Made by a program: the position numbers and the translations under genes. This document shows positions 24,896-28,821 of a DNA stretch of 40,295 bases, one piece after another. The notes below the pieces were generated by a model, which worked only from the letters and a program-made list of their open reading frames with translations, was not told where the DNA came from and searched no databases. Position 1 is the first letter of the stretch; every line of letters begins with the position of its first letter. This DNA is from Flavobacteriia bacterium (lineage in GTDB: Bacteria > Bacteroidota > Bacteroidia > Flavobacteriales > Schleiferiaceae), in assembly GCA_013373425.1 (NCBI GenBank), contig JABXHW010000051.1, forward strand, positions 1 to 40,295. The letters are read 5' to 3'.

Positions 24896-24900
24896 TGTCC

Positions 24901-25371
24901 TTAGCAACAACCACTGCCCGGCTTGCATGCATTTGAGGCCTGACCCAATGTACTCAACTTTACCCTTTTCTTTGTCTCCGGAATACCACACTTGTCCTTA
25001 GCTAGGCAGTTGGTTTCGGTCGGGATAAGATTGAACACTCCCTCAGTGAAATCCAAATCATAAATCTCGATACTGGCACCTTGGTACTCCACCTTAACGT
25101 CGACATCGGGCAGGCTGAGTTGATCCACAGATATTTCAATAATCGATTGTAATTTTTGAACTCCTAGACGATGATCGTAATCGCTCGCCGTATAGAGTTG
25201 AAAGGCAATGGTGCTTTCATCTCGAATTGTCCCACCACAATCGATAAAGTTTTTACGCACAAGTCCGACTTCGGTGACGTGAAAATGCGCAGGCACTAGC
25301 TCCCCAGAAGGAAGAGCAAATCGAACGTTTTCAAGCGTATTCAGCGCATGGCGTACTTCTGATAGTTTCAT
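24901..25371 (-). CDS. DUF6428 family protein with cysteine-rich tail
   Basis: A 156-residue cytoplasmic protein. It begins KLSEVRHALNTLENVRFALPSGELVPAHFHVTEVG, the mark of DUF6428, a family commonly encoded in Bacteroidota arsenic-resistance clusters. Cysteines occur at FIDCGG, TNCLAKDKCGI and the C-terminal ACKPGSGCC. The cysteines and the arsR gene 19 bp upstream in the same operon suggest a metalloid-linked function; the reaction is unknown. No arsenate reductase or efflux pump follows: the next gene is convergent. Confidence 0.82.
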   Translation of the reverse strand: MKLSEVRHALNTLENVRFALPSGELVPAHFHVTEVGLVRKNFIDCGGTIRDESTIAFQLYTASDYDHRLGVQKLQSIIEISVDQLSLPDVDVKVEYQGASIEIYDLDFTEGVFNLIPTETNCLAKDKCGIPETKKRVKLSTLGQASNACKPGSGCC

Positions 25372-25390
25372 CTAGAAATGTCTTTATATA

Positions 25391-25726
25391 TCAGCAACAA
25401 TCTCCATCCGTAGGTTGCTCAAACTGATCGAACATTGTGTCAAACACTTGTTTGATTTCAAACCACTTATCTGGATTGATGCAATAGCTCATCTTTGTTC
25501 CCTCGATGGTTCCTCGAATAATTTCAAGCTCTTTCAGCTCCCTCAAGTGCTGACTAATGGTTGCTTGTGCTAGACCTAACTCCAGGACCAACTCACCGTT
25601 GATACAGTCCTTCGTCTCCAACAGGTGAAAGACAATTGCAACCCGAGCGGGGTGCGCAAAAGCACGAGCTAGCGCTGCAATTTCATTGTGCTCTTTTGAA
25701 AACAAGTCCGACTTGGATAAACCCAT
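25391..25726 (-). CDS. arsR: ArsR/SmtB family winged-helix repressor
   Basis: A 111-residue regulator. The core is ALARAFAHPARVAIVFHLLETKDCINGELVLELGLAQATISQHLRELKELEIIRGTIEGTKMSYCI, with recognition helix LAQATISQHLREL. The family represses its own operon until As(III), Sb(III) or a similar ion binds to cysteines. Candidate ligands are the Cys in KDC, the Cys in SYC and the vicinal C-terminal pair GDCC (110-111). A near-perfect 16-bp palindrome lies 15-30 bp before the start (25741-25756). Which metal or metalloid is sensed is inferred only from the DUF6428 neighbour. Confidence 0.9.
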   Translation of the reverse strand: MGLSKSDLFSKEHNEIAALARAFAHPARVAIVFHLLETKDCINGELVLELGLAQATISQHLRELKELEIIRGTIEGTKMSYCINPDKWFEIKQVFDTMFDQFEQPTDGDCC

Positions 25727-25740
25727 CGCTGAATAATTTC

Positions 25741-25756
25741 ATCGCAATATTACGAT
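25741..25756. promoter_or_regulatory. Probable ArsR operator overlapping the arsR -7 region
   Basis: ATCGCAATATTACGAT is a 16-bp palindrome with 14 of 16 positions symmetric. On the minus strand it contains TAATATTG (25752-25745), one base from TAnnTTTG, 18 bases before the arsR start, so a bound repressor would block the promoter. Confidence 0.65.
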
Positions 25757-25804
25757 TATCGAGATTCATGGGGAAGGGCCTTGGTTGGAAAATTTTATCC
25801 ATCA

Positions 25805-25876
25805 GTAAACGTATACCCTCCGAATAATCGGCTGTAGCTTCGTACCTTGATAGTGGGGTCAGCGGGAGCTGGCCCC
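25805..25876 (+). repeat. Intergenic element, copy A
   Basis: Begins GTAAACGTATAC (25805-25816), then 4 bases, then CGAATAATCGG (25821-25831). Copy B at 26989 has the identical 12-mer, the same 4-base spacing and CGACTAATCGG. Similarity continues loosely through a GCTT...CTTGA...GGGG stretch and ends at GGCCCC. Copy A also contains a perfect CCGA/TCGG hairpin (25820-25831). Confidence 0.7.
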
Positions 25877-25905
25877 TTGGGCGCCCCCAACCCGTAGTCA
25901 AGGTA
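25843..25905 (+). ncRNA. Possible structured RNA element: three-way junction hairpin
   Basis: An outer stem TACCTTGA (25843-25850) with TCAAGGTA (25898-25905) encloses two hairpins. Hairpin 1 is GGGGTCAGC (25855-25863) with GCTGGCCCC (25868-25876), 9 pairs with one G-U, closed by the GNRA-type loop GGGA. Hairpin 2 is TTGGG (25877-25881) with CCCAA (25886-25890). It lies 41 bp before the T9SS cargo gene. It could be a leader structure or an untranscribed DNA hairpin; no known RNA family is recognised. Confidence 0.4.
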
Positions 25906-25946
25906 AAGGACGACCAGTTTGTTATTCAACCTCATTCTCTCTCGAA

Positions 25947-26906
25947 ATGAAAAAGCTCCTACTCACAATCTCCGTCACTCTCTTCACATTGAACGTTCAA
26001 GCTCAATTTGGTGAGAATGCCACTTGGCATTTCAACTACACTGAATACGGATACTTCGGACATAAGAAAATTGAACATGTAGGAGACACCAATATCCTAG
26101 GCATGCAATGGCTCAAATTTGAGGTCACAGGATCAAGGGCCATTTACACAGGGCCAAGCACCTATAGCGTGTCAAGAGGGCTGACATTTGATCCCATTTT
26201 CATTGCTACCAGAAACGATTCCGTTTTCAGACTAGGGGTAGATACGGCTCTCCTACTATATGACTTGAATGCCGACATCGGCGACTCATGGGAGTTCGCT
26301 CTACCTGACACTTCGTTCGGCTGCACGTCCCCATCTAAAGCAACAGTAGTAGCAAAAGGCGTTGAAAACATCGCAGGAGCCAATGTGAGATACATCGATG
26401 TCCGCTTCCCAATGGACACCGTGTCTTATCCAAATGGACCGTACTATCAAATTGTTAGTCCGCACTACCTAAGTGAGAGAATTTACCTCGACTTTGGCGC
26501 GCTGTTTTACCACGGACTTTTCGCTCCTTCTCCTAACACATGTGATGGAACCTCCTTTCAATTGAACATGTATGATCTGAGGTGTTTTCAGAATGACACC
26601 ATATCTTTCAACCGCACCAATTATCCTTGCGCAACGACAATTGGTCTGAATGAAACAGAAGAACAAAAGGTCTCTATCTACCCAAATCCTACTCATGGCA
26701 TTATTACTATAGAATTCCCATCTCCGACGAATTTTGATACCGAAGTGCGAGTGGTGAACATTCATGGGCAACTAGTGATGAGAACTGCCATTCCTCAAAC
26801 CGACGAGCTTCACATCGAAATTGAAGAAACAGGAGTCTATTTTATCCACATCACCTCTGATCAGGGTAGAATAGACATTGTCGAAAAGGTCGTGGTTGCG
26901 CACTAG
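25947..26906 (+). CDS. Secreted protein with T9SS type A C-terminal sorting domain
   Basis: A 319-residue protein: Sec signal peptide (KKLLLTISVTLFTLNVQAQ, cleavage after about Ala19), a unique middle part of about 220 residues with no family I recognise, and a C-terminal sorting domain from about 240 with VSIYPNPTHGIITIEF and GVYFIHITSDQGRIDIVEKVVV. Such domains send proteins through the type IX secretion system to the cell surface. The gene is flanked on both sides by copies of the same intergenic element, which makes it look like an inserted or exchanged unit. Confidence 0.9.
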   Translation: MKKLLLTISVTLFTLNVQAQFGENATWHFNYTEYGYFGHKKIEHVGDTNILGMQWLKFEVTGSRAIYTGPSTYSVSRGLTFDPIFIATRNDSVFRLGVDTALLLYDLNADIGDSWEFALPDTSFGCTSPSKATVVAKGVENIAGANVRYIDVRFPMDTVSYPNGPYYQIVSPHYLSERIYLDFGALFYHGLFAPSPNTCDGTSFQLNMYDLRCFQNDTISFNRTNYPCATTIGLNETEEQKVSIYPNPTHGIITIEFPSPTNFDTEVRVVNIHGQLVMRTAIPQTDELHIEIEETGVYFIHITSDQGRIDIVEKVVVAH

Positions 26907-26940
26907 AATCAGCACAATAGAATTACGTCAAATCTGTGTC

Positions 26941-26970
26941 GCCTGAATTGAATTCAGAGCGGCATTTTTT
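26941..26970 (+). terminator. Probable terminator of the T9SS cargo gene
   Basis: GCC (26941-26943) can pair with GGC (26961-26963), enclosing the perfect palindrome CTGAATT-G-AATTCAG (26943-26957). A run of six T follows at 26965-26970. The stem has an unpaired GAGC-type bulge, so efficiency is uncertain. Confidence 0.5.
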
Positions 26971-26988
26971 GTGAATAACTAAGCGATT

Positions 26989-27060
26989 GTAAACGTATAC
27001 TTTACGACTAATCGGGATGCTTTGCCGAACTTGAGTTGGGGAGGAGGTTTGGAGGCCCCC
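26989..27060 (+). repeat. Intergenic element, copy B
   Basis: GTAAACGTATAC (26989-27000), 4 bases, CGACTAATCGG (27005-27015), then a G-rich stretch in which GGGG (27038-27041) can pair with CCCC (27056-27059). Outer GGATGC (27015-27020) can pair with GCATTC (27065-27070). Same orientation as copy A, 1184 bp away, with the T9SS cargo gene between. Confidence 0.7.
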
Positions 27061-27160
27061 GGACGCATTCATGAAACTCGACTGATTTTCAACCAATTAA
27101 CAACACTCCTTCGACTCAAAACCACCGCCGTTTCGCCCTTGTAGTTCAACCTGTAATGGC

Positions 27161-27168
27161 TACTTTTG
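27161..27168 (+). promoter_or_regulatory. -7 promoter element TACTTTTG of pruA
   Basis: Exact TAnnTTTG match ending 27 bases before the ATG at 27196. It overlaps an in-frame TTG at 27166, which is why that codon is not used as the pruA start. Confidence 0.6.
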
Positions 27169-27195
27169 AAGTCAAACCCAAAAAAGATTCCGAAA

Positions 27196-28821
27196 ATGCC
27201 GAAGGGAATTTATCCAGTACCTGTGGCGGTGAATGAGCCGATTTTGAGCTACGCGCCAGGTACTCCAGAAAAAGTAGAATTGCTCAGCACCTATCGCAAG
27301 ATGAAGTCGCAGGTGACTGACATTCCAATGTTTATAAATGGAGAGGAAGTAAGAACAGACAATACGTTCCCGCTCTACCCACCTCATGAATTGAAAACCC
27401 AAATTGGCACCTACCACAGAGGTACAGCCAAGCATGTTCAAGATGCAGTTGACGCAGCGCTCGCCGCTCGCGAGCAATGGGCTAACTTGAGCTGGGAGCA
27501 CCGCGCAAGTGTATTCCTCAAAGCTGCAGATCTTATCGCCGGACCTTACCGTGCAAAGATGAATGCGGCAACGATGTTGGCTCAGAGTAAAAACGCTTTC
27601 CAAGCTGAAATCGACTCAGCATGTGAATTGGCTGACTTCCTCAGATTCAACGTTCAATACATGACGGAGATCTATGAAATGCAACCAGAGTCATCTGAAG
27701 GCATTTGGAACCGTCTCGAGTATCGTCCACTTGAAGGATTCGTTTTCGCAATTACTCCATTCAACTTTACGGCCATCGCCGGTAACCTTCCTGCTGCTCC
27801 TGCCCTCATGGGGAACGTGGCAGTTTGGAAACCAGCCGACAGTCAGATTTATTCTGCTCATGTAGTGATGGAGGTATTCCGCGAAGCAGGTGTTCCTGCT
27901 GGAGTAATTAACCTCGTATTTGTTGACGGACCAGAAGCAGGCGATGTTGTATTCAACCACCCAGACTTTGCAGGATTGCACTTCACCGGTTCTACTGGGG
28001 TCTTCCGCCACTTGTGGAAGACTATCGGTCAGAATATCGACAAGTACCGCAGCTACCCGCGCATCGTGGGTGAAACAGGTGGTAAGGACTTCATCTGGGC
28101 ACACAAATCAGCAGATCCACAACAAGTGGCTGTAGCCATGGCTCGTGGTGCTTTTGAATTCCAAGGACAAAAGTGTTCTGCAGCTTCAAGAACTTACCTT
28201 CCTTCGAATACTGCCGATGAGATTCTCGAAAGAGCAGTAAGCATCGTGAAAGAATTCAAGATGGGTTCTCCAGAAGATTTTGGAAACTTCATTAACGCTG
28301 TTATCGATGAAGCTGCATTCGACAAGATTGCTAATTACATCGATTACATCAAGTCTCAAGACGATGCGGAAATCCTCGTTGGTGGTAACTACGACAAGTC
28401 TGAAGGTTACTTCATCGAACCTACAATCGTCAAGACGACCAATCCGAAGTTCCGCACCATGTGTGAAGAAATCTTTGGACCTGTATTGACGGTTTACGTT
28501 TACCCAGAAAATGAATGGGAAGAAACACTTCAACTCATTGATGAAACAGGTGAATACGCACTTACAGGAGGCATCTTCTCTGCTGATCGCTATGTAATCG
28601 AAACTGCAGCTAAGAAGCTTGTGAATGCGGCTGGTAACTTCTATATCAACGACAAGCCGACAGGTGCGGTAGTTGGTCAGCAGCCATTCGGTGGTGCGCG
28701 TGGTTCAGGAACCAACGACAAGGCAGGTAGCTACTTGAACTTGTTGCGTTGGGTTTCTCCACGAACTGTTAAAGAGAACTTCGTTCCACCAGTGGACTAC
28801 CGTTATCCTTTCATGGGATAA
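27196..28821 (+). CDS. pruA: L-glutamate gamma-semialdehyde (1-pyrroline-5-carboxylate) dehydrogenase
   Basis: A 541-residue aldehyde dehydrogenase. It oxidises glutamate semialdehyde to glutamate with NAD, the second step of proline breakdown. It starts PKGIYPVPVAVNEPILSYAPG, the family N-terminus, and contains FAITPFNFTAIAGNLPAAPALMGN, FTGSTGVF, the general-base Glu293 in VGETGGKD and catalytic Cys327 in FQGQKCSAASR. The proline dehydrogenase (PutA N-terminal) domain is absent, so this is the separate single-function enzyme. It has its own promoter (27161) and a strong terminator (28845-28874). Confidence 0.96.
   Translation: MPKGIYPVPVAVNEPILSYAPGTPEKVELLSTYRKMKSQVTDIPMFINGEEVRTDNTFPLYPPHELKTQIGTYHRGTAKHVQDAVDAALAAREQWANLSWEHRASVFLKAADLIAGPYRAKMNAATMLAQSKNAFQAEIDSACELADFLRFNVQYMTEIYEMQPESSEGIWNRLEYRPLEGFVFAITPFNFTAIAGNLPAAPALMGNVAVWKPADSQIYSAHVVMEVFREAGVPAGVINLVFVDGPEAGDVVFNHPDFAGLHFTGSTGVFRHLWKTIGQNIDKYRSYPRIVGETGGKDFIWAHKSADPQQVAVAMARGAFEFQGQKCSAASRTYLPSNTADEILERAVSIVKEFKMGSPEDFGNFINAVIDEAAFDKIANYIDYIKSQDDAEILVGGNYDKSEGYFIEPTIVKTTNPKFRTMCEEIFGPVLTVYVYPENEWEETLQLIDETGEYALTGGIFSADRYVIETAAKKLVNAAGNFYINDKPTGAVVGQQPFGGARGSGTNDKAGSYLNLLRWVSPRTVKENFVPPVDYRYPFMG

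Follow-up and report, generated by a model that had tools for sequence, protein, structure and literature searches.

Short non-autonomous repeats in intergenic DNA are a known kind of bacterial sequence. The REP/REPIN (BIME) elements of the GTAG superfamily are repeated intergenic hairpins in inverted pairs, their families occur in few genomes, and the spacer between the hairpins can be conserved, as described in the available sections of one account (PMC3733652). The repeat family presented here shares all of these features. It also resembles BOX and RUP of pneumococcus, ERIC and the Correia elements in being short, dispersed, folded and modular, and some Correia insertions create promoters (PMC3049150, available sections). 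Set beside these elements by description, the present family differs in that its promoter-like module is common to a chromosomal gene set. The sigma-A box TAnnTTTG of Flavobacterium psychrophilum occupies positions -12 to -5 and has a variant, TAnnTTGY (SM5 motif) (PMC9723704, available sections). Comparable boxes are found here before plausible starts, [TC]AnnTTTG-like at standalone sites and TAnnTTGA-like within the repeats, but here they are preceded by a palindrome and CGACTA, and the available sections of that paper describe no motif with such a core. Natural transformation of Riemerella requires a helix-hairpin-helix protein and is impaired in YifB/ComM mutants (PMC8459023), while RadC and ComM have been listed as hypothetical competence proteins (PMC7965970). 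Genes of the helix-hairpin-helix and YifB/ComM kinds carry the core in the genomes studied here, whereas dprA and comEC do not; the available parts of both papers report no shared promoter motif, and the literature found describes neither a regulator nor a promoter motif for the DNA-uptake genes of Bacteroidota, Riemerella included. No paper was found that combines such repeats with competence. The letters of the palindrome do appear in the accessible literature, in papers on an insect virus, on CcpA of Staphylococcus and on the xylose operon of a Paenibacillus.

The window analyzed here is a stretch of 40,295 nucleotides from a genome (G000) of the genus Phaeocystidibacter. Two sites within it, E1 and E2, are likely to be degenerate copies of a genus-specific, MITE-like non-autonomous repeat carrying a predicted promoter of the DNA-uptake type. 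The dispersed repeat is real and apparently undescribed in the literature found; its general kind is known, and what is unusual is a near-identical version of a promoter-like module belonging to uptake and repair genes. The initial annotation had reported two similar sites, and a recount by hand confirms its 23 of 27 identical positions; the pattern GTAAACGTATAC-N4-CGAnTAATCGG is matched exactly at 25805-25831 and 26989-27015, both on the plus strand. With up to three mismatches the GTAAACGTATAC pattern had no match in 100 dinucleotide shuffles. It also had no further match in the genome at that tolerance, and the additional genome copies that the initial annotation proposed to look for emerged, in dozens per genome, with a covariance model. 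The GTAAACGTATAC pattern is thus too strict to show the repeat family.

The core of E1, of the type CG-N3-GTAAACGTTTAC-N4-CGACTA with three mismatches, occupies 25800..25826 on the plus strand, with a palindrome-like center at 25805-25816. It is followed at 25843..25850 (plus strand) by the box TACCTTGA, which resembles the flavobacterial -7 box (TAnnTTTG / TAnnTTGY), is putatively active and stands at the same spacing from the core as in other copies. The right terminus at 25855..25876 (plus strand) is a 22-nt hairpin with a 9-bp stem and a GGGA loop. Beyond it, TCAAGGTA at 25898..25905 is an inverted copy of TACCTTGA and possibly a remnant of a second, oppositely oriented terminus, in which case two termini would abut back to back at E1. 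E2, likewise on the plus strand, has a core with one mismatch at 26984..27010 (palindrome-like center 26989-27000), a putative -7-like box, GAACTTGA, at 27027..27034, and a right terminus, GGGGAGGAGGTTTGGAGGCCCC, at 27038..27059 in which only a 4-bp outer stem (GGGG/CCCC) pairs. The G-rich DNA ending in GGCCCC that had been noticed after both sites is present (25855-25876 and 27038-27059), but the hairpin attributed to both is strong in E1 only. When the two 121-nt stretches were folded, z values were -1.69 and -0.41 on the plus strand and -1.66 and 0.99 on the minus strand. Both sites are incomplete copies, consisting of a core and a right end, and neither has an inverted left terminus.

A search of 40 genomes with the strict pattern and up to three mismatches gave a single site, with three mismatches, in one related genome; comparison of the three sites revealed that conservation runs on to CTTGA at equal distance and then to GGGG..CCCC. 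Once this right-hand box was included in the pattern, three genus members had 5, 7 and 2 sites, and the remaining 85 of the 88 family genomes had none. The covariance model, built from an alignment of 14 sites, gave 39 copies in G000, 48 in Phaeocystidibacter luteus LMG 25704 (G002) and 17 in G001, a third species of the genus. These are hand counts of matches that are 80 nt or longer and have an E value no higher than 0.002, in which the opposite-strand match C22:51059 of G002 is left out as the partner of another. They are minima, because scoring covered 150 of the roughly 650-750 candidates in each genome. Convincing matches were obtained in 3 of 395 sampled genomes of the order, all in this genus, although weak relatives may have been missed since scoring, under strict filters, was limited to the 10 best candidates of each genome. 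One weak, single match in G065, which belongs to another genus of the family, was not counted: it covers a terminus-like hairpin, GGAACTTTAT..GGGGG..CCCCC (L194), that lies directly after a gene and has no core. The viral contigs and plasmids searched contained no match to the element, and in a collection of genome contigs, which may omit the window's own genome, the exact core pattern occurred in P. luteus only. A second repeat of P. luteus, made of arrays of TCTAACCCTC-like units, adjoins several of its element copies (L154, L157, L161, L168, L173 and L193).

A complete copy is about 190-200 bp long and comprises two inverted G-rich termini that often form hairpins, a left arm and the core. 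In BLAST comparisons between copies the shared sequence commonly has the same two end points, which are separated by 190-200 bp and have unrelated flanks beyond them; a few alignments run longer (e.g. L118-L125 and L154-L155). The left terminus appears as an opposite-strand partial match to the right-end part of the model. The consensus of 24 G000 copies consists, in order, of a CCC-rich arm, CCCC-n4-TCAAGTTCG, AATCTCA, a GTGAATCAC-like stretch, AGCCG-TAA-GTAAACGTTTA-n5-CGaCTa and cgTAaCTTgA-n4-GGGG..GCCCCGGGca. The order of modules is the palindromic GTAAACGTTTAC with its CG and CGACTA, about 20 bp, the -7-like box and then, usually after 3-4 bp, the G-run of the right terminus; the core is off-center within the element and the distance to the left terminus varies. 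Counted from the core start in 77 hairpin copies, the TT of the box lies at offset 47 or 48 in 72 (49 and 23 copies, respectively) and at 46 in one, and was undetected in four; among cores with up to three mismatches, 84 of 85 have TT at offset 46-49. The class assigned automatically to each copy is approximate, as E1 was called "full" through a chance left-end match, L188 "left_only" and L142 "core_only". These copies form a dispersed multi-copy unit with sharp ends and, when complete, with terminal inverted repeats, as in a MITE, and the suggestion of a mobile unit in the initial annotation gains support from the roughly 190 bp common to copies in unrelated flanks. Copy number, dispersal as a unit, restriction to the genus among the sampled genomes and rigid spacing can all be read from the sequences.

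The termini can be divided into several types. In one of them the inner stems differ in sequence and still pair perfectly (CGCG/CGCG, CGAG/CTCG, CAGC/GCTG, ATGC/GCAT, TAGC/GCTA), and such compensatory variation is a sign of selection on the hairpin in this class. Other types, including that of E2, pair over 4 bp only. Across 85 unique ends the value for the longest stem is 5.6, barely above the 5.1 of interior-shuffled controls. A test that requires the stem to begin at the first G detects no better folding than in shuffles for 29 of 77 right ends and 28 of 59 left ends. RNAalifold over the mixed ends supported only three pairs, none of them compensatory.

The same core also stands alone before genes. 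A search with the core only, allowing up to three mismatches, found 35, 12 and 49 sites in G000, G001 and G002, against 0, 1 and 1 for the reversed control. Fifteen cores without hairpins lie directly before a gene start and all point at the gene; two further standalone sites, one inside a gene (L279) and one with no downstream gene found (L282), are not included. The genes concerned are comM/YifB (two), a helix-hairpin-helix protein (three), yraN (two), radC (two), recJ (one), a membrane-type protein gene in an operon with a second helix-hairpin-helix gene (three), a DUF2851 protein (one) and a 23S-intervening-sequence protein (one). Identities come from a domain scan of one member per group, extended to two members for the first helix-hairpin-helix protein and to all three for the membrane-type protein, the remainder being named by eye from likeness to a scanned member. 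The second helix-hairpin-helix protein scored below the Pfam cut-off (20.7 vs 27 bits), and Pfam matches were lacking for the membrane-type proteins and for the first helix-hairpin-helix protein in G001. Six groups with links to DNA uptake, repair or nuclease-like domains account for 13 of the 15 genes. The gene for the 23S rRNA intervening-sequence protein of P. luteus (L272), which has a core of the uptake type, is an odd member among DNA-handling genes. In 14 standalone sites the box is CAnnTT[TG]G-like and its TT is invariant at offsets 48-49, with the recJ box one base later. Core and spacing, to within 1-2 bp, are common to the hairpin elements and the comM, helix-hairpin-helix, radC, yraN and recJ sites. 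This recurrence just upstream of 15 genes favors the option of a repeated regulatory element that was raised initially.

A shared candidate site precedes several uptake genes, as expected of a competence regulon, but dprA and comEC have no core in the fetched flanks, to which the search was confined, and an "uptake regulon" would for that reason be partial. Best scores around dprA and comEC were -6.8 to -16, except for 4.2 at a hairpin copy near the dprA of G001; the 14 standalone sites score 47.5 to 67.6 on a matrix trained on those same sites. At the corresponding place before comM in G001 there is a core that appears degenerate by eye, with a score of -7.1 that lies within the background (mean of 3-kb maxima -10.3, sd 4.8). 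Outside the genus, the regions upstream of 18 comM starts had no clear core by eye, G017 having GTAAACGTTGAT. For this comM set 30 loci were fetched and 29 analyzed (L308 excluded), of which 21 had a start and eight without one were dropped.

The proposed explanation begins with the core, which would bind a regulator of the comM, helix-hairpin-helix, radC, yraN and recJ promoters. A MITE-like non-autonomous mobile sequence would have captured such an uptake-type promoter, and transcription would begin on or next to the first G in the right terminus and run outward. Promoter activity of the module of core and box is predicted here from its likeness to described boxes. When TACCTTGA is set at -12 to -5, the predicted +1 of E1 is 25855, the first G of the hairpin, and the same placement puts the predicted start of E2 at 27039, one base inside the G-run. 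E1 may give the T9SS gene an additional, regulated start 92 bp before it. As for genes on the right-hand side of the 77 hairpin copies, 18 have the same direction as the copy, 20 the opposite direction and 39 are uncalled. Since hairpin copies have no preference for pointing at genes, the majority of them are probably not gene promoters.

Four other explanations can be set against a MITE-like repeat with a captured promoter. Five copies have both flanks represented in the sampled G002 sequence; three of these (L117, L141 and L177) face an element-free sister site, L174 was left out of the reading, and at L131 the same intergenic gap in G002 holds an element in the opposite orientation (C12:72990-73080), through either inversion via the termini or an independent insertion. 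No target-site duplication was readable in the sister sites, which are too diverged, and a search limited to Y1 transposases found no mobilizing enzyme. A REPIN/BIME of the RAYT type, in which GTAG-tagged REP hairpins are moved by a Y1 (REP-associated tyrosine) transposase, would account for the inverted pairs of termini, for the GTAG that by eye precedes CTTGA in many G002 right ends, and for the presence of Y1_Tnp genes in G000 (one) and G002 (three), that of G000 with a core-like site upstream scoring 8.3 (3-kb maxima on one strand of G002 C1 average -10.3, with one at 18.0). Yet G001 has no Y1_Tnp match despite at least 17 copies, by eye the tag is mostly GTAA, GTAC or GGAA in G000, and the spacer holds a promoter-like core, unlike in the REP/REPIN families of the sections cited above (PMC3733652). 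Unlike in those families, too, no RAYT flanked by the element was found: the model placed no copy next to the G002 genes at L100 and L112 (the third was scanned for the core only), and the G000 gene has its own, different CATCGGGTGGNAACCCGATG hairpins at 1211 and 1436 of L105 (stretch 1211-1455), a type present in one of 40 fetched G000 element loci. Nor were lone termini found in the stretches searched, 796 kb of G002 and the 40-kb window, where 18 of 19 matches to a terminus-only motif that misses some known termini lay in core-bearing elements and one was chance-like. Y1 transposases are a poor fit, and RAYT mobilization, which we consider improbable, was rejected. An integron-like recombination or cassette site, with E1 and E2 as direct repeats for insertion or loss of the T9SS gene, is the least probable of the four and very doubtful. 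The initial annotation had described the copies as flanking a single T9SS cargo gene, and the gene at 25947..26906 (plus strand) indeed encodes a sorting domain (PF18962, E 1.2e-12), but the copies are not a pair framing one gene. Their equal orientation on either side of it, and the failure to find a full-length homologue of it in either sister species, would suit a cassette. So would the rare core variant CGTATAC, common to E1 and E2 and, by eye, absent from all others of 96 core matches. Against this, neither copy is closest to the other: over core and right end the nearest relatives are L126 and L114 for E1 and L116 for E2, the mutual ranks are 35 and 28 of 76, and the right ends are only 63% identical. 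From the core alone E2 is the eighth nearest of 76 to E1, which together with the shared CGTATAC is a hint that the two sites arose by local duplication or underwent gene conversion. An old local duplication fits, and so does independent insertion followed by gene conversion.

The sister species weigh further on the cassette reading. In P. luteus the dnaN, metallophosphatase and aldehyde dehydrogenase genes are adjacent, and in G001 the same locus holds genes read by eye as nadA and nadB; E1, E2, the T9SS gene, the DUF6428 gene and the ArsR-family regulator gene (25391..25726, minus strand, upstream of E1 and outside the element) are absent there in both. The prediction that relatives without the gene would retain a single copy thus fails, as gene and both copies are missing in two sister species and no one-copy allele remains; the locus is in this respect a further element-free case. 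The missing block extends to the DUF6428 and ArsR genes outside the repeats, and 13 other core sites in sampled G002 stretches were not seen in pairs around single genes. The metallophosphatase-dehydrogenase junction (window 24896-27100; also L044 and L045) differs in gene content by species, with DUF6428/ArsR/T9SS, none, and nadA/nadB by eye, and may be an insertion hot spot. Downstream of E2 lies an aldehyde dehydrogenase family gene (Pfam Aldedh; 27196..28821, plus strand), which we call pruA. E2 is probably of no consequence for it, because the bases right before its start are similar in all three species, though the sisters lack E2. A small RNA gene family, with a shared promoter and a GC-rich 5' hairpin in each member, would explain why the G-run usually begins 3-4 nt past the box, where a transcript would start, and would suit the compensatory stem changes of one class. 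This has only a slim chance of being correct: a covariance-model search of window 25700-27300 gave no Rfam match up to E 5, the 14-sequence alignment has little conserved beyond the right terminus, neither a conserved 3' part nor a shared T-run is seen, and right-side flanks are unrelated between most copies. The early proposal of an RNA is not supported, and neither is that of a recombination site around the T9SS gene. A dispersed binding site for a chromosome-organizing or replication protein, in which the hairpins would serve as DNA structures and the promoter likeness would be secondary, agrees with a palindromic core in many intergenic copies and with the lack of direction bias relative to called genes. 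It is slightly less improbable than the RNA and RAYT readings and still unlikely, for it leaves aside the 15 standalone cores that stand immediately before genes and are accompanied by a fixed -7-like box, and the ties of most of those genes to DNA handling.

A MITE-like repeat with an uptake-type promoter remains the preferred reading, and it can be extended, tentatively and with considerable doubt, to the possibility that the element took over the DNA-uptake control site of the genus, so that at the onset of uptake dozens of dispersed copies would be transcribed outward together. If this were true, activity of the element would be tied to competence, as might be its movement on DNA that is incoming or single-stranded, and the element would have spread competence-controlled promoters over the genome. 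The standalone cores provide a precise candidate site for the control of DNA-uptake genes, and, judging by the hairpin copies, a selfish repeat may be carrying this candidate uptake site around the genome.
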